The translations under genes were made by a program, and so were the position numbers. Under the pieces are notes generated by a model that was given only the letters and a program-made list of their open reading frames with translations, had not been told where the DNA came from and ran no database searches. Positions 25,972 to 35,309 of a stretch of 64,000 nt of DNA are shown here, piece after piece. This DNA is from Cyclobacterium sp. SYSU L10401 (GTDB lineage: Bacteria > Bacteroidota > Bacteroidia > Cytophagales > Cyclobacteriaceae), in assembly GCF_010993705.1 (NCBI RefSeq), contig NZ_WOFO01000006.1:124001-188000 (forward strand). The letters run 5' to 3'. Numbering within the stretch: position 1 is the first letter of the stretch; each line of letters starts with the position of its first letter.

Positions 25972-27363
25972 ATGTACCGTAATTTATTTATTATTCTTAT
26001 TCTTGCGATCTCCGGATGGGGCTGCCGGAGCCTGCCCATGGGAGGACCGGAAGCCGCTGCTCCTCCACCACCTCTTCCTAAGGCCGAGGCGTCAGTGAAC
26101 CTGAGCATGGAAATTCCCCTTTCCTTTCTGGAAGATCAGATCAATAAAAGCCTGGACAAGCAACTTTTCAATGAAAAAGACCTGGAGTTTGGGGATGGAT
26201 TATATGCCGATGTTGACCTGAAGAAAACCGGCCTGCTTAACCTGACAGCCCAGGAAAATGGCAATATCCTTTTGGGATTGCCCGTTTTTCTGGATGGGGA
26301 AGTCAGGTTGGAAAAAAGGCTTTTTGGGCAAAGGATAGCCACATCCATACCTTTTCAGGAAAATTTAAAACCGCAAATCAGCTTTTTACCGGTCTTGAAA
26401 GAAAACTGGGCCTTTGATGTAGAAGGACTGGATATTCAATCCTGGGGGAAAGACCTGGAATACGATTTACTGGGTTTTAAGATTGATTTTGAGCCCATGG
26501 TAAAGCGGCAAATGGTAACCATCATGGAAAGCCAATTGCGTAGCGGAGCATTGGAAGCTGTAGACTTCAAACAGATTGCCGATAAGTTCTGGACTTCTTT
26601 CAGTCGGCCCAGGTATGTAGAAAATGGCTTTTCGGGTAGCTATATCTACCCGCATCCAGAAAAACTAAGGGTTCATGATGCATTCACACCTGATCAGATG
26701 CTGCAATTGAATTTTGGGCTGGAGGGAGAAATGCGAAGCCAAAAGGACAGGCCACTGGCCACCCAGCTTTCGCCCCTTCCTGATATTTCCCTGGAACAGG
26801 TTGAGGGAAACCATTTATCCATTACTACTCCACTTACCATTGGCTTCGAAGAAATCTCCGTCTACCTCAATGAGACCCTTGCCGACAGCCTGATTGCGCT
26901 GGACAGCAAAACCAGGCTCTTACCCAAAGATTTTGCTGTTCGTCATTACGCTGAAAAAACCATGATCACCATGGATTTTCTGGCAAAAAGAACAGGCAAA
27001 AAAGATTTGGAAGGTAAATTCTACCTGGCTGGCAGTCCGGTTTATGACCCGGAAATTCAGGCCATCCGGCTGGAAAATGTAGCTTTCCGCCTGGAAACCG
27101 ATAATTTTTTTGCCAACATGACCAATTGGATGAGGCGCAGGAAAATCATGAAAATCATCCAAAAGCAGGGGGTAATTCCTGTAGCGGACTATTTGGAAAA
27201 TGCCCGGCTTGCTTTCCTGGAAATGGGAGACTGGCAAACAACCTTTGCCACATTTAAATTGGTTAGACCGGAAATTTCCATTTCGGGAATTTACCCCAGT
27301 ACCACAGATTTGGTCATTTATGTGAAAACCCAGGCCGACATACAAATGGAATGGGACAAATAA
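25972..27363 (+). CDS. DUF4403 family lipoprotein
   Basis: A 463-residue predicted lipoprotein: hydrophobic N-terminus then SGWGCRSLP, in which the Cys is the likely acylation site. It has the DUF4403 pattern: MEIPLSFLEDQINKSLDKQL near the start, GLDIQSWGKDLEYDLLGFKI in the first repeat and a second half with PSTTDLVIYVKTQADIQMEW at the end. DUF4403 proteins have two tandem beta-rich domains similar to TULIP lipid-binding folds; a role in lipid handling at the envelope is a structural guess, not established. It is convergent with the exonuclease gene, with 4 bp between their stops. An exact -7 box precedes it. Confidence 0.85.
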   Translation: MYRNLFIILILAISGWGCRSLPMGGPEAAAPPPPLPKAEASVNLSMEIPLSFLEDQINKSLDKQLFNEKDLEFGDGLYADVDLKKTGLLNLTAQENGNILLGLPVFLDGEVRLEKRLFGQRIATSIPFQENLKPQISFLPVLKENWAFDVEGLDIQSWGKDLEYDLLGFKIDFEPMVKRQMVTIMESQLRSGALEAVDFKQIADKFWTSFSRPRYVENGFSGSYIYPHPEKLRVHDAFTPDQMLQLNFGLEGEMRSQKDRPLATQLSPLPDISLEQVEGNHLSITTPLTIGFEEISVYLNETLADSLIALDSKTRLLPKDFAVRHYAEKTMITMDFLAKRTGKKDLEGKFYLAGSPVYDPEIQAIRLENVAFRLETDNFFANMTNWMRRRKIMKIIQKQGVIPVADYLENARLAFLEMGDWQTTFATFKLVRPEISISGIYPSTTDLVIYVKTQADIQMEWDK

Positions 27364-27367
27364 ACCA

Positions 27368-28042
27368 TCAACCCATGAGGTCACCATAAGTCCTGATCCC
27401 CTTTTTATCGGCAATTTTCAATAGCTTCACCAAAAGCTGAGCCGTCAAAAAAGCATCTCCTGCAGCCGTATGCCTATCATCTGCTGCAATACCAAACCGA
27501 TCACATAGCTGATCCAGGGAATAGTCCCGGGATACTACTGCCCGGGGGTCGTAAAATTTGCCCTTGTCCAACCTTACCGCCAGATCATAGGTATCCAGGG
27601 CCGGGTTTTTCACTTTCCGAAAACCAAAGCTTCTGCCCACCCTTTCCATCATGGCCAAATCAAAACCCACGTGATGACCTACCAGGATCTTTTGCTGGGC
27701 ATCATCCAGGAAACTACGAATCAGTTGTTCCCTGCTGACAAAGGGCCGCTCCCCAACCAATCCATGCACTTTAATCGCCTCCCGATTCCTTTTCTTTGGC
27801 CGCAGGTATAATTCCCTGGAGGTAGAAACCCTGATCCGGTTATGGTTTACCTGCACGGCCCCATAGGACAGCACATGATCTCTTTTGGTATCCAAACCTG
27901 TGGTTTCGGTATCCAAAACCAGAAAACCCAGTTCAGACACCGGTTTGCTCCCAGGGATTTTTCGCTCCAGGGACTTCTCATACATCTTGATAAATTCCGG
28001 TTTGGGAAGGGATGCAAAACCGAATAGCGCTTTCCAGTCCAT
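27368..28042 (-). CDS. DEDDh 3'-5' exonuclease (DnaQ/PolC-like) in the acetate gene cluster
   Basis: A 224-residue exonuclease of the DnaQ superfamily. Motif ExoI is LDTETTGLD (Asp44, Glu46), ExoII is GHHVGFDLAM and ExoIII is DRHTAAGDA, giving the four acidic residues and the His of the DEDDh class. The 40 residues before ExoI (PKPEFIKMYEKS) are not part of the nuclease core and resemble those of the exonucleases found next to DUF294 proteins in other bacteria. It begins 1 bp after the DUF294 gene, so the two are almost surely one translational unit. It may act on DNA, RNA or a small nucleotide; nothing here indicates replication. Its role in acetate use is unknown. Confidence 0.9.
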   Translation of the reverse strand: MDWKALFGFASLPKPEFIKMYEKSLERKIPGSKPVSELGFLVLDTETTGLDTKRDHVLSYGAVQVNHNRIRVSTSRELYLRPKKRNREAIKVHGLVGERPFVSREQLIRSFLDDAQQKILVGHHVGFDLAMMERVGRSFGFRKVKNPALDTYDLAVRLDKGKFYDPRAVVSRDYSLDQLCDRFGIAADDRHTAAGDAFLTAQLLVKLLKIADKKGIRTYGDLMG

Positions 28043-28043
28043 A

Positions 28044-29990
28044 TCAGTTACCGAAATAGTCTAACTGGAACCGTACCTTCAATATTTTTTGAATTTCATC
28101 TATCGGAAAAAAGGCGTTTTTTAACAATTGCCGCTGCAGCTTACTTAGGGAGTCGGGCTGAATAAACCTTCCCGAGGAGTCCGTTGATAATCCTTCCAGG
28201 GCCCTGATGCGCATAAAAATTTCATAGGCTTTCCCGGCATCCCTGTACAAGGCGGCCTGTTGGGGTTCCAGTTCGGCCAATTTTTCATACCTTTTAAAGG
28301 TGTTGTTGATGCCCACCACCTGGTGGCTCAGGATCAGCACCCTGGCAGCATCTGCAAGAGGCATCATGGCCCGCAGCTTGATATCAAATTTCTCTGCATG
28401 CTTTCCTGATTTTTCTACCATAAAATTCCTGAAAAACCCCAGCGGAGGTGGATTCAAAAGTGCGTTCTTTGCGAAAAAATTCAAAAAAAGTTTCCCCTGA
28501 CTGATTGCTTCATACACATGTTGGGTCAATGCCTCTGCAAGCGCCTGCTTTCCACTCACCGCCCGAAAATCGAAAAAAATGGTGGCCATCATCAGGGATT
28601 GGGGATCTGGCTCGCGGATCCATTGGCTAAAGTAATCCTTCCACTGACTGAGCGGCTGACACCAGCGCGGATTATTGGCCATCATCTCGGCAGGACAGGA
28701 AAGAAAGCCACAGGCAAAAAGGATATCCATCACATCTCTGGCCAGGAGATGCATGTAATCCTGGGCCTTTTCCTTCAGTTCTTCAGAAACATCCTCATAG
28801 ACAATGGCATTATCCAGGTCTGTACGAAGCAATTGCTCTCCCCTTCCTTCAGATCCCAATGCCAAAAAGCAAAATTGCATATCCCTTACCTCCGGAAAAT
28901 TTGCTTCATGTCTCGCTCTGGCCATGGCAATGGCTTGCCGGATGAGGGTATCGTTGATTTCGGTAAGGATTCCTGCAATAAAATCTATGGCCAGTTCATT
29001 CTCCAGAAAATATTTCAGCATCCCTTCCGCCTGATTTCTTAATTTTGCCAGCTCATGGATATCATGGCTTTCCTGAAGTGCTTTGATCAATACCGCCGGA
29101 CTATTCCCCTGAGAAAGCAGGATATCATGGTCAGAAATAATTCCCAGCAATGGGGAATCTGCACTGCCATCTTCTGTAAAAACCAGGTGATGAAGCCTGT
29201 GTTTGACCATATTCAGGTACACCTGGGAAAACTCCAGGTCCTTTCCTGCCGTCACCACAGGGTGACTCATGATTTTTTCTACAGGCGTATCATAGGGTAG
29301 GTTTTGGGCAATCAGCCGATTTCTAAGGTCTTTATCAGTAATGATTCCTCTGGGATGTTTGTTTTCATCCACAATGATGATGGAACCTACTTTCCCTCGG
29401 CTCATTTTTTCAACTGCTTCCGCTATGTTATTACCTGTATGGCAATGAATGACCGGATGGGAATATTGAATGGATGTCTGCCCGGAAAAAAGCATCAGCC
29501 CGTAATGGTTGGCCTTACCCCCAAAAAGAGCCCTGACTTTTTGTGTTTGTGACAATCCGGACCGTACCACTACCTGACCCGAAGCAAAGCCCGAGGCAAA
29601 GTAAAGGCTCACTTTATTGTTTTCCTCCAGTACCTTTTCAAAAATACCAACCGGCACAGCGATGATCAGGCTGGGTTCATCGGCTATGGCATCGAGGATA
29701 TAAGGTCTTTTGCCCAGCAGGGCCAAAACTCCAAATACGTCCCCTTCATCACAAATTTCTACGGTCTCTTCCTTTTCTTCAATATGATCTGTCAGCTTGA
29801 TGGCCCCCTCCTTGACCACAAAAAAGTAACTCTTGGCCGGTTCTCCTTTTTGAAATAAAAATTCACCCTTCTCATAATAGACCAAATCCACCTCTTGGGC
29901 TACCTGAGCGAGCAATTCAGCTGACAAAAAGCTAAATGGGGGGAAATTCTTTAAGAAATCAATGACCCTATTGACGATGACATTGGCCAT
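28044..29990 (-). CDS. cNMP-binding/CBS/DUF294 nucleotidyltransferase-like signalling protein
   Basis: A 648-residue multidomain regulator. Residues 1-130 are a cyclic-nucleotide-binding (CRP-type) domain, about 175-295 a CBS pair (HPVIHCHTGNNIAEAVEKMS, then GIITDKDLRNRL and GIISDHDIL), about 330-470 a DUF294 nucleotidyltransferase-like domain, and about 490-640 the DUF294 C-terminal helical domain. The NTase motif is complete: G379-S380 and D391-x-D393 (LGSEGRGEQLLRTDLDNA), as in GlnD uridylyltransferase, so catalysis is possible. There is no HTH. It lies between acs and the exonuclease. Its ligands, presumably adenine nucleotides at CBS and a cyclic nucleotide at the N-terminus, and its target protein are not known. 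Confidence 0.92.
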   Translation of the reverse strand: MANVIVNRVIDFLKNFPPFSFLSAELLAQVAQEVDLVYYEKGEFLFQKGEPAKSYFFVVKEGAIKLTDHIEEKEETVEICDEGDVFGVLALLGKRPYILDAIADEPSLIIAVPVGIFEKVLEENNKVSLYFASGFASGQVVVRSGLSQTQKVRALFGGKANHYGLMLFSGQTSIQYSHPVIHCHTGNNIAEAVEKMSRGKVGSIIIVDENKHPRGIITDKDLRNRLIAQNLPYDTPVEKIMSHPVVTAGKDLEFSQVYLNMVKHRLHHLVFTEDGSADSPLLGIISDHDILLSQGNSPAVLIKALQESHDIHELAKLRNQAEGMLKYFLENELAIDFIAGILTEINDTLIRQAIAMARARHEANFPEVRDMQFCFLALGSEGRGEQLLRTDLDNAIVYEDVSEELKEKAQDYMHLLARDVMDILFACGFLSCPAEMMANNPRWCQPLSQWKDYFSQWIREPDPQSLMMATIFFDFRAVSGKQALAEALTQHVYEAISQGKLFLNFFAKNALLNPPPLGFFRNFMVEKSGKHAEKFDIKLRAMMPLADAARVLILSHQVVGINNTFKRYEKLAELEPQQAALYRDAGKAYEIFMRIRALEGLSTDSSGRFIQPDSLSKLQRQLLKNAFFPIDEIQKILKVRFQLDYFGN

Positions 29991-30066
29991 ATCGGAGCTT
30001 AGCTAAGAAATGATGGGGAAAGAAGCTCGTTAAACGCCCCCTCCCCCGGGAAATATACAGCAGGTA

Positions 30067-31965
30067 TTATTCAATTCTACCTTCAATGATCTTGTCTACT
30101 ACATCTGGATCCAGCAGGGTTGAGGTATCTCCCATGTTGTCCATATTTCCTTCCGCTACCTTTCTCAGAATTCTGCGCATGATCTTACCGGAACGGGTTT
30201 TAGGAAGCCCCGGAACAATCTGAATCTTGTCCGGCTTGGCGATAGGTCCGATGATCTTGGTCACCGTATCCTTGATCTCGTTGGTCAGGCTTTGCTCAGA
30301 CCTGTTTTTCATATCACAAATCACATAAGCATAGATTCCCTGCCCTTTTACCTGATGTGGATAACCTACCACGGCAGACTCTACTACCAGCGGATGCTCA
30401 TTGATGGCATTTTCTACCTCGGCAGTTCCCATCCGGTGACCAGATACATTGATGACATCATCTACCCTTCCCAAAATGCGGTAATAGCCGTCATGGTCTC
30501 TTTTGACTCCATCTCCGGTGAAGTACATGCCCTTGTAAGCAGAAAAATAGGTTTGCTTGCAACGATCATGGTCGCCATAGGTGGTACGGATCATTCCAGG
30601 CCAGGGAAATTTAACACAAAGATTACCTTCAACGGAATTACCAGTCATTTCCTTACCCTCTGTATCCATGATGGCCAGCTGGATCCCCGGCAGGGGTAAG
30701 GTGGCATATGCTGGTTTGGTAGGGGTAATACCGGCCAGGGGAGAAACCATGATGCCTCCGGTTTCTGTTTGCCACCAGGTATCTACTATGGGACATTTCG
30801 TTTTCCCAATATGGGTATGGTACCAGTGCCAGGCTTCCTCATTGATGGGCTCTCCCACTGAACCGAGCACCTTAAGGGAGTCCAGCTTGAACGGCTCTAT
30901 CGGTTCCGTACCATGGGCTTGCAGTGCCCGGATGGCGGTGGGTGCCGTGTAAAACTGGTTGACTTTATACTTGTCCACAATTTCCCAAAAGCGTCCGGCA
31001 TGCGGATAGGTAGGAACCCCTTCAAACATGATGGAGGTAGCCCCGGCCAATAAGGGGCCATAAACAATATAGGAATGCCCGGTGATCCAACCGATATCTG
31101 CTGTACACCAGTACACATCACCAGGACTATATTGAAATACATTCTCAAAGGTATATTTGGAATACACCATGTATCCTCCGCAAGTATGCACTACCCCTTT
31201 GGGTTTTCCTGTAGATCCTGAAGTATACAAGATAAAAAGCATGTCTTCACTATCCATCTCCACTGCTTCCTGATGGGCATCTTTTCCTTCTATGGCTTCA
31301 TGCCACCAAAAATCCCTGCCGGCCTTCATGCTTACTTCCTGACCCGTCCTTTGGTAAATAATCACCGTACTCACCGTGCTGGTATTTTCCAATGCCTCAT
31401 CCACTACTGCCTTGACGGGGATCTTTTTATTTCCCCTGAAATTACCATCAGCCGTCAGGACCACCTTGGCTTCGCAATCATTGATACGATCAGCAAGGGC
31501 ATTACTGGAAAATCCGGCAAAAACTACCGAATGAATGGCTCCAACCCTGGCACAGGCCAGCATGGCAACTGCCGCTTCCGGCACCATGGGCATATAAATG
31601 ATTACCTTATCTCCTTTTTGTACGCCTTTTTCCTGCAAAACATTAGAAAAACGACACACTTCTTCATATAGCTGTCTGTAGGTAAGGGTCCGGCTATCCT
31701 CCCCAGGTTCATTGGGCTCCCATATAATGGCGGGTTTGTCTCCAATGGTGTACAAGTGCCTTTCCAGGATATTTTCGGTGATGTTTAATTTGCCATTCAG
31801 AAACCATTTGACATCAGGGCCCTCAAAATTCCAGTCCAAGACTTTGTCCCAGCGTTTTTTCCAATGAAAAGAATCGGCTACCCTGGCCCAAAAATTTTCC
31901 GGGTCAGCTACACTTTTCTGGTATTCATGAAAATATCCACTAAGGGTATGAATTCTATCACTCAT
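30067..31965 (-). CDS. acs: Acetyl-CoA synthetase
   Basis: A 632-residue AMP-forming acetyl-CoA synthetase. It shows the ATP-binding loop YTSGSTGKPKGVVHTCGGY, the WWQTETGG motif that shapes the acetate pocket (Trp), YFTGDGVKRDHDGYYRILGR, and the C-terminal PKTRSGKIMRRILRK, whose Lys is the residue acetylated by Pat-type enzymes in other bacteria. It converts acetate, CoA and ATP to acetyl-CoA, AMP and pyrophosphate in the cytoplasm. It lies 87 bp after the symporter and 76 bp before the DUF294 gene, reading the same way, so uptake and activation of acetate are coupled. Length and motifs match the family. Confidence 0.97.
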   Translation of the reverse strand: MSDRIHTLSGYFHEYQKSVADPENFWARVADSFHWKKRWDKVLDWNFEGPDVKWFLNGKLNITENILERHLYTIGDKPAIIWEPNEPGEDSRTLTYRQLYEEVCRFSNVLQEKGVQKGDKVIIYMPMVPEAAVAMLACARVGAIHSVVFAGFSSNALADRINDCEAKVVLTADGNFRGNKKIPVKAVVDEALENTSTVSTVIIYQRTGQEVSMKAGRDFWWHEAIEGKDAHQEAVEMDSEDMLFILYTSGSTGKPKGVVHTCGGYMVYSKYTFENVFQYSPGDVYWCTADIGWITGHSYIVYGPLLAGATSIMFEGVPTYPHAGRFWEIVDKYKVNQFYTAPTAIRALQAHGTEPIEPFKLDSLKVLGSVGEPINEEAWHWYHTHIGKTKCPIVDTWWQTETGGIMVSPLAGITPTKPAYATLPLPGIQLAIMDTEGKEMTGNSVEGNLCVKFPWPGMIRTTYGDHDRCKQTYFSAYKGMYFTGDGVKRDHDGYYRILGRVDDVINVSGHRMGTAEVENAINEHPLVVESAVVGYPHQVKGQGIYAYVICDMKNRSEQSLTNEIKDTVTKIIGPIAKPDKIQIVPGLPKTRSGKIMRRILRKVAEGNMDNMGDTSTLLDPDVVDKIIEGRIE

Positions 31966-32052
31966 CTTCAGGTATTTTTGGTTGTAAATCTTCTATAAAT
32001 TAAACTAAATTTTTTCTAATTCCAGTATCCCGGCATTCCAACAACACCTCTT

Positions 32053-33738
32053 TTAGTGATCTTGCGCTTTTCCAGCTCCCCTTGGAATCCGGATTTCCTG
32101 TATCATTTCCTGCACGTGTGCGGGAGGATCCGGTGTAAATTTGGAAACCACATAACACGCCACAAAATTGATCAGCATTCCCAGAGAACCAATGCCTTCC
32201 GGAGAAATCCCAAACCACCAGTTGTCCATGTTATTCGCTTCAGGATATACAAATTTAAAATAAATGATGTATCCCAGGGTAAATGTCAGGCCACAGATCA
32301 TACCGGCTATGGCTCCCTCCTTATTCATTCTGGTCGAAAAGATGCCCATAATAATTACCGGAAAGAAAGATGCCGCAGCCAAACCAAAGGCAAAAGCGAC
32401 TACCTCGGCTACAAAACCCGGGGGGTTGATGCCAAAATATCCCGCTATGACTACTGCCACCGCAGCTGCTGATCTGGCAATGATCAGTTCTGTTTTTTCG
32501 GTCATCTGTGGAACAAAGGTTCTGAAAAGGTCTCTTGACACCGAAGTAGAAATGACCAAAAGCAAGCCGGCAGCTGTAGACAGGGCAGCAGCCATTCCTC
32601 CTGCAGCCACCAGGCCGACCACCCAGTTGGGCAGCTCGGCTATCTCCGGGGCGGCAAGGACCATGATGTCTTTATCCACGGTAAGTTCGTTCATTTCCGG
32701 ATCAGCCAGGTATTGGACCAGGCCATCGTTATTCAGATCTTCCACCACAATCAGGTTGGTTTTTTGCCAGTTTTCTACCCATTCCGGCAGGTCATCTACG
32801 GGCTGTCCTGCTACGGTATCTATGGCATTGTAAATCCCAAAAGCAGCAACCGCAGGGGCCGTGGTGTACAAAATGGCGATAAAGACCAAGGCATAGCCAG
32901 CCGAAAGCCGCGCATCTTTCACTCTGGGAACTGTAAAAAAACGAACAATTACATGGGGTAAACCTGCAGTCCCTACCATCAGTGCCAGGGTAATCGCAAA
33001 AATATCTGCTACCGACTTTCTACCCGAGGTATACTGATGAAATCCAAGATCTACCAGGATTCCGTCTAATTTATCCAAAAGGTACGTTCCATCCTGCACC
33101 GTACCTCCCAATCCCAATTGAGGGATAGGATTTCCGGTCAGCTGGATAGAAATGAATATGGCAGGAACCATAAAGGCAAAGATCAACACACAATACTGGG
33201 CCACCTGTGTATAGGTAATCCCTTTCATTCCCCCCAAAACGGCATAGAAAAATACGATGGTCATGCCTATCAGCACACCGGTCTCAATATCCACCTCCAG
33301 GTACCTGGAGAAAACTATTCCAACCCCTCGCATTTGTCCCGCTACATAGGTAAAGGAAATAAATAAGGCACAAAAAACGGCCACTACCCTGGCCTTGTTG
33401 CTGTAATACCGATCCCCCACAAAGTCAGGAACGGTAAATTTGCCGAACTTTCTCAGGTAAGGGGCCAATAACAAGGCCAGCAATACATAACCGCCCGTCC
33501 AGCCCATGAGGTAAACAGAACCATCATATCCTGAAAAAGCGATGATTCCGGCCATGGAAATAAAGGAGGCGGCGGACATCCAGTCTGCTGCTGTAGCCAT
33601 TCCGTTGGCCAATGGAGAAACACCTCCTCCAGCTGTGTAAAATTCCTTGGTAGAGCTTGCTCTGGTATAAATGGCAATGCCTATATACAGGGCAAAGGAA
33701 AGGCCTACCAGAATGTAGGTCCAGGTTAAAATATCCAT
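32053..33738 (-). CDS. Sodium:solute symporter large subunit, VC_2705/ActP-like acetate permease
   Basis: A 561-residue member of the SSS family with about 13 membrane helices. Features of the VC_2705 subfamily are clear: MDILTWTYILVGLSFALYIG at the start, GWTGGYVLLALLLAPYLRKF, TYVAGQMRGVGIVFSRYLEV, and an insertion near residues 300-370 predicted to face the outside (DNGLVQYLADPEMNE-like acidic segment). This subfamily always pairs with a DUF4212 small subunit, which here precedes it by 17 bp. With acs downstream the likely substrate is acetate or another short monocarboxylate, driven by sodium. ActP of E. coli is the nearest named relative, but the pairing with DUF4212 sets this type apart. 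Confidence 0.92.
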   Translation of the reverse strand: MDILTWTYILVGLSFALYIGIAIYTRASSTKEFYTAGGGVSPLANGMATAADWMSAASFISMAGIIAFSGYDGSVYLMGWTGGYVLLALLLAPYLRKFGKFTVPDFVGDRYYSNKARVVAVFCALFISFTYVAGQMRGVGIVFSRYLEVDIETGVLIGMTIVFFYAVLGGMKGITYTQVAQYCVLIFAFMVPAIFISIQLTGNPIPQLGLGGTVQDGTYLLDKLDGILVDLGFHQYTSGRKSVADIFAITLALMVGTAGLPHVIVRFFTVPRVKDARLSAGYALVFIAILYTTAPAVAAFGIYNAIDTVAGQPVDDLPEWVENWQKTNLIVVEDLNNDGLVQYLADPEMNELTVDKDIMVLAAPEIAELPNWVVGLVAAGGMAAALSTAAGLLLVISTSVSRDLFRTFVPQMTEKTELIIARSAAAVAVVIAGYFGINPPGFVAEVVAFAFGLAAASFFPVIIMGIFSTRMNKEGAIAGMICGLTFTLGYIIYFKFVYPEANNMDNWWFGISPEGIGSLGMLINFVACYVVSKFTPDPPAHVQEMIQEIRIPRGAGKAQDH

Positions 33739-33755
33739 AATTGGGTCATAAGGGA

Positions 33756-34040
33756 TTATTTTTCATTGACATCAAATGCTTCGTCCAGCTTGTTCATCTT
33801 GTAGACGTAAACAAAAATCAGGATCACAAAGGTAAATATGGAGCCTTGTTGCGCAAACCAGAATCCAAGTTTGTATCCACCGATCTTAATGGCATTTAAA
33901 GGCTCCGCCAGTAAAATACCAAATCCAAAGGAGACCAGAAACCAGATGGAGAGCAGGATCAGCACTGTCCTGATGTTTCGCTTCCAGTATTTTTTCATTT
34001 GCTGTTTGTGGTCTTCCATATGAGGGTCCGTTTGCTTCAT
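33756..34040 (-). CDS. DUF4212 small subunit of the sodium:solute symporter
   Basis: A 94-residue membrane protein with two helices (about 24-46 and 62-82) joined by a short loop (LAEPLNAIKIGGYKLGFWFA). The pattern RNIRTVLILLSIWFLVSFGF and FTFVILIFVYVYKMNKLDEA identifies the 'putative solute:sodium symporter small subunit' family. It is the first gene of the acetate operon and is thought to be needed for assembly or activity of the large subunit. A near-consensus promoter lies about 70-95 bp upstream. A second Met at residue 8 is an alternative start. Confidence 0.93.
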   Translation of the reverse strand: MKQTDPHMEDHKQQMKKYWKRNIRTVLILLSIWFLVSFGFGILLAEPLNAIKIGGYKLGFWFAQQGSIFTFVILIFVYVYKMNKLDEAFDVNEK

Positions 34041-34171: not shown

Positions 34172-34693
34172 TTAATCTTTTTTTCTTGCCTCTATGGCCG
34201 CAACGCCTGCCCGGAATCGTTCTTTCGGACTACCGGAAATTTTAACCCAAGGTACTCCAGAAGATTCCAAAACCTGTTCGTATAACTGCATAAAATAGGT
34301 CCGCATATCCGGATCCGGATGTTCCCTTAGAGGATCATCCTGCCAGGGGATATCTATGTCTGTAAGCAAGTACAGGTCGTATTTTCGGTTTTGGATCTGT
34401 TGGGTTATCCAGGGATGGGTACGGCCGTATTTGTGCTCACTCCAGATCTTGATTACCCGCAGATCCGTATCGCAAAATAAAATTTCTTTCGCTTGTTTGG
34501 CCCGCTCATCCTCGCTTTCAATTTGTCCCCTGGCCATTTCCAGTAAATCATCAAAACGATATTTGCGGTCCAATTGGAGCAGATATTCTCTGGCAAATTC
34601 CGGCACCCAGGGCTCCGAATAGTAAGCAGCCAGGGCCTGTGTCAGGGTGCTTTTTCCAGTAGATTCGGGCCCTATGATTACAATTTTATCCAT
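34172..34693 (-). CDS. NadR-like nicotinamide riboside kinase/AAA-type ATPase
   Basis: A 173-residue P-loop kinase. Walker A is IGPESTGKSTLTQALA at the N-terminus, followed by WVPEFAREYL and ARGQIESEDERAKQAKEILF and CDTDLRVIKIWSEHKYG, all of which match the C-terminal ribosylnicotinamide kinase domain of NadR. The nucleotidyltransferase and HTH domains of full-length NadR are absent. It should phosphorylate nicotinamide riboside to NMN in the cytoplasm. It overlaps pnuC by 8 bp when read from the ATG at 34693 (a further ATG lies four codons upstream), so transporter and kinase are made together: phosphorylation traps the vitamin brought in by PnuC. Confidence 0.88.
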   Translation of the reverse strand: MDKIVIIGPESTGKSTLTQALAAYYSEPWVPEFAREYLLQLDRKYRFDDLLEMARGQIESEDERAKQAKEILFCDTDLRVIKIWSEHKYGRTHPWITQQIQNRKYDLYLLTDIDIPWQDDPLREHPDPDMRTYFMQLYEQVLESSGVPWVKISGSPKERFRAGVAAIEARKKD

Positions 34694-35309
34694 TATTGGC
34701 TGCATAAATTTTGGCCATTCTGATCCAGGCGACCAATCCCAATACTGCCAAAACCGTGAAAACCAGAAATTGAAAGGAGGTTAACAAAAGGCCTTTGTAA
34801 AGGTAAAGCGGGACGGATACCAGGTCTGTGATGATCCAGGCAATCCAGTTTTCCACCTTTTTTTTGGCCATCAGCCACATGCCCACAAAAGCTGTAGCCG
34901 TAGTGAAGGAATCCCAATAGGGTACATCACTGTCGGTAAAGTTATGAAGTACAACATACAAGGCAACATAGGAAACCAGCAATAGCAACAGGGCATTCAC
35001 CATCCCCCTGGTGCCCAGCCAGGTAATAGGAACATTGGCTTTTCCGGGTTTGGGATGCGTCCAGACATACCAACCGAAGATCGACATGACAAAATAATAC
35101 CCGTTGATGCCCATATCGGCATAGAGTCTGACCTGAAAACAGATCCATACATAAATCAGGGTGCTGATGATGCCCGTAGGGAAAACCAGAATGTTTTCCT
35201 TCATCGAATAAAATACAGAAGCCAGGCCAAAAAAGACGGCCACGGCTTCCAGCCAGCTCATTTCCTGTATACCTGCTTGCAGGCCTTCAATAATGTATTG
35301 CCAATCCAC
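34686..35309 (-). CDS. pnuC: Nicotinamide riboside transporter PnuC
   Basis: A 207-residue PnuC-family carrier with about seven membrane helices. The family's aromatic substrate motif is seen as ENWIAWIITDLVSVPLYLYK near residue 150, and earlier as VMSIFGWYVWTH; both match the WxxW-type substrate site of PnuC from Neisseria. It carries out facilitated diffusion of nicotinamide riboside, pulled inward by phosphorylation through the overlapping NadR-like kinase. PnuT (thiamine) is a close relative, but the kinase partner and the absence of any thiamin pyrophosphate riboswitch upstream favour nicotinamide riboside. A G-rich palindromic element lies between it and the GMC oxidoreductase. Confidence 0.9.
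   Translation of the reverse strand: MDWQYIIEGLQAGIQEMSWLEAVAVFFGLASVFYSMKENILVFPTGIISTLIYVWICFQVRLYADMGINGYYFVMSIFGWYVWTHPKPGKANVPITWLGTRGMVNALLLLLVSYVALYVVLHNFTDSDVPYWDSFTTATAFVGMWLMAKKKVENWIAWIITDLVSVPLYLYKGLLLTSFQFLVFTVLAVLGLVAWIRMAKIYAANNG

Follow-up and report, generated by a model that had tools for sequence, protein, structure and literature searches.

What do a nucleotidyltransferase and an exonuclease contribute to an operon for acetate uptake? The question is raised by a 64,000-nucleotide stretch of the genome of Cyclobacterium sp. SYSU L10401 (contig NZ_WOFO01000006.1, positions 124,001 to 188,000; hereafter the window), where genes for a DUF294 protein and a DEDDh exonuclease follow those for a two-part SSS symporter and an acetyl-CoA synthetase. 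Our best explanation of the whole, which we hold tentatively and consider somewhat short of probable, is that the two genes form a conserved regulatory pair controlling SSS-type monocarboxylate symporters (for acetate, pyruvate and the like) by reversible nucleotidylylation. The DUF294 protein would sense a metabolite, probably an adenine nucleotide at its CBS pair, and also through its cNMP-like domain; its GlnE-like domain would attach a nucleotide monophosphate to a membrane target (the symporter or its small subunit being the likeliest), lowering uptake, and the DEDDh enzyme would hydrolyse the phosphodiester, free the 5'-nucleoside monophosphate (5'-NMP) and restore uptake. We propose a DEDDh eraser because the pairing lies far above control, the writer has a predicted GlnE/DrrA-like fold and no built-in eraser, catalytic sites are kept, sensors are movable, and the genetics of Pseudomonas putida fit. 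What the data show directly is how the genes are ordered and conserved, which catalytic residues they encode, the folds predicted for them, the architectures of the sensors and the published phenotypes; the modification itself, the protein that carries it, whether it inhibits or activates, and the ligand are inferred.

Five co-directional genes in the window

A preliminary description made from the DNA sequence had named five genes running in one direction, and their existence, shared direction and descriptions are all confirmed by open reading frames (ORFs), Pfam, NCBIfam and catalytic residues:

33756..34040, minus strand: DUF4212 small subunit of SSS symporter, 94 amino acids (TIGR03647; PF13937, Pfam E 3.2e-35)
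32053..33738, minus strand: SSS symporter large subunit, VC_2705 family, 561 amino acids (TIGR03648; NCBIfam 853 bits, cut-off 320.75)
30067..31965, minus strand: acs, AMP-forming acetyl-CoA synthetase, 632 amino acids (TIGR02188; 968 bits, cut-off 725)
28044..29990, minus strand: DUF294 protein, proposed writer, 648 amino acids, with cNMP-like domain, two CBS repeats, GlnE/GlnD-type nucleotidyltransferase DUF294 and DUF294_C (Pfam; structure model with GlnE and DrrA fold matches)
27368..28042, minus strand: DEDDh 3'-5' exonuclease-fold protein, proposed eraser, 224 amino acids (PF00929, E 2.5e-19; catalytic residues; structure model)

In this order the genes are separated by 17, 87, 76 and 1 bp, as calculated from the coordinates; a scan confined to the consensus finds no terminator-like site in any of the four gaps, and the end of the run abuts a convergent gene (25972-27363, DUF4403). 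The identical five-gene order is found in three other genomes from the family to which the window belongs (L166, L175, L177), and again in two loci of Algoriphagus (L034, L039). The source genome encodes one more DUF294 protein, a CBS-DUF294 form of 494 amino acids without the cNMP domain (G000:C3, L176:8222-9706), and homologues of the exonuclease, symporter and acs are absent from the 16.5 kb surrounding it.

The grouping exceeds chance

Neighbours of DUF294 genes were counted in three samples and in controls, the latter being 40 stretches placed at round coordinates on the larger contigs of these genomes. The Bacteroidota sample comprised 247 evenly drawn genomes, 72 of them over the DUF294 family cut-off, from which 80 of 85 DUF294 places were taken (G057, G068, G218, G102 and G060 were left out); 148 genomes drawn from the phylum to which a Desulfarculaceae genome belongs (here called Desulfobacterota) gave 40 stretches, one of which (L254) has a DUF294 match under the 100-bit limit; and 12 of 61 plasmid records were taken. 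An exonuclease homologue was found near DUF294 in 51/80 Bacteroidota, 16/40 Desulfobacterota and 10/12 plasmid records (controls 0/40), a symporter of either SSS type in 14/80, 17/40 and 7/12 (controls 1/40), and acs in 16/80, 6/40 and 2/12 (controls 0/40). All three thus lie far above the controls, and the grouping that the preliminary description had taken for a functional unit is not random.

The exonuclease is particularly close, being at most 60 bp from DUF294 in 51/80 Bacteroidota, 14/40 Desulfobacterota, 9/12 plasmid and 76/80 nearest-relative loci. The last set, the 80 best relatives, was picked for its resemblance to an alignment of 14 members, 8 of them with an adjacent exonuclease, and therefore describes the window's own subfamily and not DUF294 at large; it may also have species in common with the other sets. 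On the genome contigs of these relatives the exonuclease is directly downstream of DUF294 in 76/80, one of the four misses being cut by a contig end. When their neighbours were clustered without prior names, the exonuclease came first (74 loci), followed by acs (29), the SSS symporter (18) and a next best family with 15; proteins of up to 90 amino acids, and hence DUF4212 too, were left out of this clustering. On a tree of 183 nucleotidyltransferase cores, built by a quick method and with many forks left open, the window protein belongs to a clade of 94 members, 91 of them with an exonuclease, and the exonuclease label needs 18 changes, compared with 48 when shuffled. DUF294 and DUF4212 occur together in 47 of the 247 Bacteroidota genomes against 24 expected, relatedness not being removed, and lie within 6 kb of each other in 13 of the 47; this count leaves out five genomes with weak or GlnE-like DUF294_C and two with DUF4212 under cut-off.

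These data bear on a first alternative, namely mere co-regulation of unrelated organic-acid genes with no biochemical link between the two products. Single deletions in Pseudomonas are mild or silent, and in P. putida the pair lies apart from the symporter operon with its first gene still in the same regulon (see below), both of which such co-regulation would accommodate; the tight spacing of the two genes, the clustering of their pairing on the deep tree and the occurrence of sensors on either partner speak against it, and we consider it very improbable.

The DUF294 protein as a probable writer

The nucleotidyltransferase site comprises two features:

28809..28856, minus strand: nucleotidyltransferase motif GSEGRGEQLLRTDLDN, residues 379-394, catalytic positions kept in homologues
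28569..28571, minus strand: D474, third carboxylate of the site (FFDFR), invariant in the 14-row A1 and the 42-row A2 alignments

All residues of the catalytic GS...DxD...D pattern are present (G379, S380, D391, D393, D474), so that the earlier statement of a catalytically complete domain with an exonuclease 1 bp away is accurate, and they are intact in 153 of 159 DUF294 homologues with an exonuclease within 1.5 kb. Among Bacteroidota DUF294 proteins lacking a nearby exonuclease, 7/28 are degenerate too. In an AlphaFold model (pLDDT 85.7, pTM 0.62; alignment of 42 rows) the catalytic half matches, among the 50 Foldseek matches listed, both halves of E. coli GlnE (3k7d, TMt 0.43-0.50; 1v4a, 0.53) and the AMPylase DrrA (6yx5, 0.60). 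DrrA is a secreted effector acting on host GTPases, whereas DUF294 proteins sit in metabolic operons. GlnD and GlnE carry their own erasers in the same chain, as an HD domain or a second nucleotidyltransferase domain, respectively; Pfam gives only cNMP, CBS, DUF294 and DUF294_C for the window protein, with neither an HD domain nor a second nucleotidyltransferase domain, and a separate eraser would therefore be expected.

The likeness to GlnE and GlnD thus extends over the predicted fold of the catalytic half, the catalytic motif and the helical C-terminal domain, DUF294_C belonging to the same Pfam clan as that of GlnD/GlnE according to PMC3710099; the differences lie in the eraser, which is not in the same chain, and in the attached sensors, which are CBS and cNMP-like. 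One DUF294 relative also matches GlnD_UR_UTase. As to the catalytic RNase motif of HEPN domains, which is characteristic of HEPN/MNT toxin-antitoxin systems, a table in the same paper has 'No' for GlnD/GlnE/DUF294_C in what we take to be the active-site column, and the P. fluorescens homologue Pflu5625 has already been predicted to nucleotidylate some protein (PMC5715377). Given the predicted fold and the conserved catalytic residues, the DUF294 protein is probably a GlnE-like protein nucleotidylyltransferase.

One could also speculate that DUF294 makes a small nucleotide signal, a dinucleotide or short oligomer, which the exonuclease degrades. Second-messenger synthases are found in the nucleotidyltransferase superfamily, messengers of this kind are often removed by nucleases, and writer and degrader are indeed conserved together. 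The fold matches that cover the catalytic half, among the 50 listed, are however the protein modifiers GlnE and DrrA, and besides the exonuclease, acs and the symporter no neighbour family exceeds 15/80 loci, so that a conserved effector is not seen; we regard a small signal as improbable.

The exonuclease as a candidate eraser

The window exonuclease has all DEDDh residues (D44, E46, D128, H191, D196), and the site is intact in 139 of 157 homologues, the other 18 being ten short second copies, four with E for the third acidic residue (possibly an effect of the alignment), two cut by contig ends and two from Flavobacterium (L097, L112). In the ten Flavobacterium-like second pairs to which these short copies belong (L202-L204, L206, L207, L209-L213) the exonuclease is degenerate, mostly with SEDND for DEDHD, and several of the genomes hold a second, intact pair. 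The structure model (pLDDT 93.4; alignment of 37 rows) matches PolC, DnaQ and RNase T, and in NCBIfam the protein scores under the cut-off of each of the 22 models that it matches, as with the PRK09145 3'-5' exonuclease equivalog (95.5 bits, cut-off 189). It shares the fold and the five catalytic residues with the DnaQ/PolC epsilon type and RNase T, and differs from them in that its type has a fixed nucleotidyltransferase partner and that some relatives have predicted membrane segments.

By chemical analogy, a DEDDh enzyme that attacks phosphorus and so releases 5'-NMP could in principle cut a protein-O-NMP bond, the protein hydroxyl replacing the 3'-oxygen, much as snake venom phosphodiesterase reportedly strips AMP from adenylylated glutamine synthetase. 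To our knowledge, an eraser of the DEDDh class is not known from protein nucleotidylylation.

A rival explanation is that the exonuclease degrades RNA, trimming mRNAs of carbon metabolism or of transporters, while DUF294 is a sensor that either controls the exonuclease or works on its own. This comes close to a speculation in PMC9927547, whose P. putida authors propose mRNA decay without excluding other mechanisms, and it agrees with the intact DEDDh sites and with proofreading domains of PolC/DnaQ and RNase T as the nearest solved relatives. Two N-terminal membrane segments are predicted in five of the long partners, although a nuclease of free mRNA would have no use for an anchor, and the conserved catalytic site of DUF294 argues that it is not merely a scaffold; we therefore consider an RNA-degrading role unlikely, though by no means far-fetched.

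Sensor domains and membrane segments

The cNMP domain that had been described in the DUF294 protein is supported by profile and fold, but lacks the canonical Glu that in CRP/PKA-type receptors contacts the ribose of cAMP: at this position of the cassette, 42/42 rows have V, L, I, A, Y or F and never E. The fold itself matches DNR, NtcA and a cAMP-independent protein kinase A subunit as well as true binders of cGMP and cAMP, so that the argument against cAMP comes from the absent Glu and not from the fold. A role as cAMP sensor was thus rejected, and a simple cAMP input is unsupported.

Both CBS repeats of the window protein contain T/S-x-x-D (T218/D221 and S286/D289), a signature typical of adenosine-nucleotide binders; T218 and D221 are invariant in the 42-row A2 alignment and D289 is present in at least 90% of it, so the ligand of the CBS pair is, judging from the sequence, probably an adenine nucleotide.

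Sensors and membrane segments are found on either partner. Nine DUF294 proteins of 963-1005 amino acids (L145, L149, L205, L208, L223, L229, L233, L244, L247) have predicted N-terminal membrane segments flanking an outer loop, and the two that were scanned with Pfam (L145, L205) contain Cache, PAS and CBS; none of the nine has an exonuclease within 1.5 kb, and 4/9 lie beside SSS or ActP. On the side of the exonuclease, nine of the 157 ORFs exceed 270 amino acids, and among these nine, in which hydropathy was viewed, five (L123, L126, L131, L172, L200) have two predicted N-terminal membrane segments, all five in loci with SSS or ActP; PAS scores over cut-off in L172, under it in L131 and is not found in the other three. 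The sensor-less DUF294 proteins that have an exonuclease partner (L131, L172, L200) are in 3/3 cases paired with such a long exonuclease, which amounts to about two independent events, given the closeness of L172 to L200 on the tree. Two other short DUF294 proteins, L230 (cut by a contig end) and L236, have no partner nearby, and in three more genomes with a short DUF294 protein in a DUF4212-SSS-acs operon a long exonuclease is encoded elsewhere, two with two predicted segments and one with one. An interchange of sensors between the catalysts, together with membrane anchoring of both, is as one would expect of opposing enzymes acting on a membrane target.

The fusion of a cNMP-fold sensor to a modifying enzyme in acetate metabolism is known from the Pat acetyltransferases, which control Acs; their chemistry is a different one, and the cNMP domain of the DUF294 protein differs in lacking the canonical Glu.

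Published genetics in Pseudomonas

The view in the preliminary description that no role had been established overlooks three papers that place members of the pair in the MxtR/ErdR (CrbS/R) regulon, namely PP_0354 of P. putida and Pflu5625 of P. fluorescens (PMC8402216, PMC9927547, PMC5715377). PP_0354 (DUF294) forms an operon with PP_0353 (exonuclease) (PMC9927547), and these proteins have the same domain architecture and the same DUF294-then-exonuclease order as in the window; a cNMP-CBS-DUF294 gene directly followed by an RNase_T exonuclease is likewise found in plasmid-borne homologues of P. aeruginosa. The Pseudomonas systems use an ActP/DUF485 symporter, while the window has the VC_2705/DUF4212 type with acs in the same operon. 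In PAO1 the homologues adjoin actP and yjcH (PMC9927547), and in the cluster PA3232-PA3235 the pair would be PA3233 and PA3232; the cluster is up about 16-fold on propionate, on which a mutant of the P. aeruginosa actP homologue grows normally (PMC9765439). Pflu5625 is in the regulon together with actP and acs, and a CrbS/R DNA motif has been described for Gammaproteobacteria (PMC5715377). In P. putida the pair is not adjacent to actP-I, although the first gene of the pair remains a member of the regulon (PMC9927547, PMC8402216); ErdR binding was found at the PP_0354 promoter and at that of the actP-I operon, but not to acsA-I fragments (PMC8402216).

The preliminary description had named normal acetate growth of deletion mutants as evidence against a functional unit. 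Single deletion of PP_0354, PP_0353 or Pflu5625 indeed causes no acetate growth defect under the conditions reported for the two species (PMC9927547, PMC5715377), the P. putida mutants being unharmed on 20 mM acetate (PMC9927547). Deletion of PP_0353 nevertheless impairs growth on pyruvate, a defect that is complemented, whereas deletion of PP_0354 does not, and deletion of actP-I likewise slows growth on pyruvate; in transposon fitness data cited there, PP_0353 and actP-I behave alike on 5 mM acetate, where each is important, and not at higher concentrations, an effect that the authors could not test (PMC9927547). The strain table of that paper contains single deletions only. If DUF294 put an inhibitory mark on the symporter and the exonuclease removed it, a strain without the eraser should resemble one without the symporter, and a strain lacking the writer should show no phenotype, which is the reported pattern; this is our own reading and is a fit after the fact.

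The pyruvate phenotype also bears on the possibility, raised in the preliminary description, that DUF294 modifies Acs and the exonuclease reverses the modification. Acs is elsewhere controlled by covalent acetylation, and acs lies within 3 kb of DUF294 in 13/80 Bacteroidota, 5/40 Desulfobacterota and 28/80 nearest-relative loci. Loci with the transporter and no acs outnumber the converse in Desulfobacterota (13 vs 2) and plasmids (5 vs 1), but not in Bacteroidota (6 vs 6) or the nearest relatives (5 vs 18); of these two neighbours, then, the symporter is the commoner in plasmid and Desulfobacterota loci, acs leads in the nearest relatives, and in Bacteroidota neither does. Use of pyruvate should not need Acs, and the phenotype of the exonuclease mutant matches that of actP-I (PMC9927547), which modification of Acs would not explain. 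Acs as the target is thus unsupported, and we rate it as hardly probable.

Spread over phyla

In three phyla, Bacteroidota, Desulfobacterota and Pseudomonadota, the pair is found repeatedly beside symporter genes, in agreement with the earlier claim of a functional unit found in other phyla. The order is DUF4212-SSS-DUF294-(small gene)-exonuclease in Ruegeria and acs-DUF4212-SSS-DUF294-(two small genes)-exonuclease in Paracoccus, and DUF485-ActP-DUF294-exonuclease in Methylocella and on a P. aeruginosa plasmid, so that the same pair is used with two symporter subtypes having different small subunits. Skermanella has DUF4212-SSS-DUF294 with no exonuclease nearby. In the Paracoccus locus the genes between DUF294 and the long exonuclease (L126:8802-9670) encode a small protein without Pfam match and a single-domain response regulator. 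In Myxococcota, DUF294_C is over cut-off in 20/95 genomes. No natural DUF294-exonuclease fusion was found among the ORFs of 172 loci (L034-L113 and L123-L214, that is, outside the Desulfobacterota loci).

The symporter as possible target

In a search for a candidate modified Tyr, Ser or Thr in either subunit, 44 symporters (and 45 small subunits) from DUF294 loci were compared with 20 each from family f23, which gave no DUF294 match. At the thresholds used no Tyr was specific to the DUF294 set; in the symporter (44 vs 20) T535 and the last residue, His 561, alone stood out, and in DUF4212 (45 vs 20) no position did. In place of a modified residue, a column scan after the fact thus led to the C-terminal tail:

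32056..32079, minus strand: symporter tail GAGKAQDH-COOH, kept among symporters from genomes that have the pair; as a candidate docking site it is no more than a lead

The pattern P-x-G-A-G-x-A-x-x-H, or one close to it, is present in 45/48 rows with the pair and 6/36 without. It is kept in four genomes of families f7/f8 without a DUF294_C match and absent from L172, L200 and L104 despite the pair. Several ActP proteins beside the pair end in GxGAxxAxAH, others in GIGAE; E. coli, a control genome without DUF294_C match, has an ActP ending in GRAH. At most, the tail is a possible docking site.

Weighing the explanation

Several observations weigh against control of symporters by reversible nucleotidylylation. 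Much of the association of the tail with the pair is accounted for by relatedness, and after correction for this it is not significant (3.8 agreeing and 0.5 opposing independent pairs, median p 0.25). Neither transporter nor acs lies within 3 kb in 61/80 Bacteroidota DUF294 loci, and 38/85 DUF4212 genomes have no DUF294. The pair occurs without a symporter beside 2-keto-3-deoxygluconate (KDG) and alginate genes in Vibrio pelagius (L128), beside arabinan genes in Hymenobacter (L129; order reversed, exonuclease match weak) and beside proline genes in Cytobacillus (L130). The six exceptions to the intact DUF294 site, and a seventh with a more distant exonuclease, are degenerate Desulfobacterota writers, and in the ten Flavobacterium-like second pairs mentioned above a degenerate exonuclease stands beside an intact writer. 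The genetics fit other models too and come from Pseudomonas, not from the window's clade. We know of DEDDh enzymes only as nucleases, and the literature searched contained no report of a protein modification or a substrate for either protein.

Some of these points can be placed further. Each degenerate Desulfobacterota DUF294 protein (L215, L220, L222, L226, L241, L245, L251) shares its locus with an intact copy, which suggests that they are pseudoenzyme partners or subunits. Without a symporter the pair is also present in one Myxococcota locus (L082, Myxococcales) and on one Bacillota plasmid; in view of these cases and of the KDG/alginate, arabinan and proline settings, the acetate operon is one setting among several. 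The idea of an acetate-specific module is weakened by these other gene regions, and by a published phenotype that concerns pyruvate.

The interpretation in the preliminary description is, as a whole, partly supported: a functional unit is favoured by the recurrence of the pair with symporters, by the conservation of both enzymes as catalysts and by the fit of writer/eraser logic to the P. putida genetics. A more specific proposal, which we consider unlikely, is that in several phyla the DEDDh 'exonuclease' is a protein de-nucleotidylase, stripping NMP placed on a membrane symporter by a sensor-bearing GlnE-like enzyme, possibly guided by the tail (GAGxAxxH).

Were reversible nucleotidylylation of the symporter correct, it would constitute covalent control of carbon-source transporters, a post-translational layer atop the known acetate switch. 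Nutrient uptake would then have an on/off switch that has so far gone unrecognised, DUF294 and an exonuclease family resembling the DNA polymerase epsilon subunit would each acquire a function, and there would be an explanation for the pyruvate phenotype, whose cause the published work leaves open. For Pseudomonas, earlier papers already report part of this, namely that the pair exists and is linked to acetate-type uptake. In the literature searched there was nothing on DUF294 with acetate or on DUF4212, and, as far as titles and passages show, the Pseudomonas papers cited are the only ones on the pair; its occurrence across phyla, the exchange of sensors, a GlnE-like fold for the protein as a whole and the interpretation of the genetics as writer and eraser did not appear there. 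The passages of PMC5436829 and PMC7918813 mention neither exonuclease nor CBS.

Neighbouring genes

Directly upstream of the five genes and on the same strand (34172-35309), the window has overlapping genes for an NMN transporter (PF04973) and a NadR-like kinase (AAA_28), a compact NAD-salvage pair. In Lutibacter and Gelidibacter, two tandem DUF294-exonuclease pairs adjoin a gene for a 1274-amino-acid tandem acetyl-CoA synthetase (L050:8438-12262, L094:8583-12407), in which two sets of ACAS_N, AMP-binding and AMP-binding_C follow each other in one frame.

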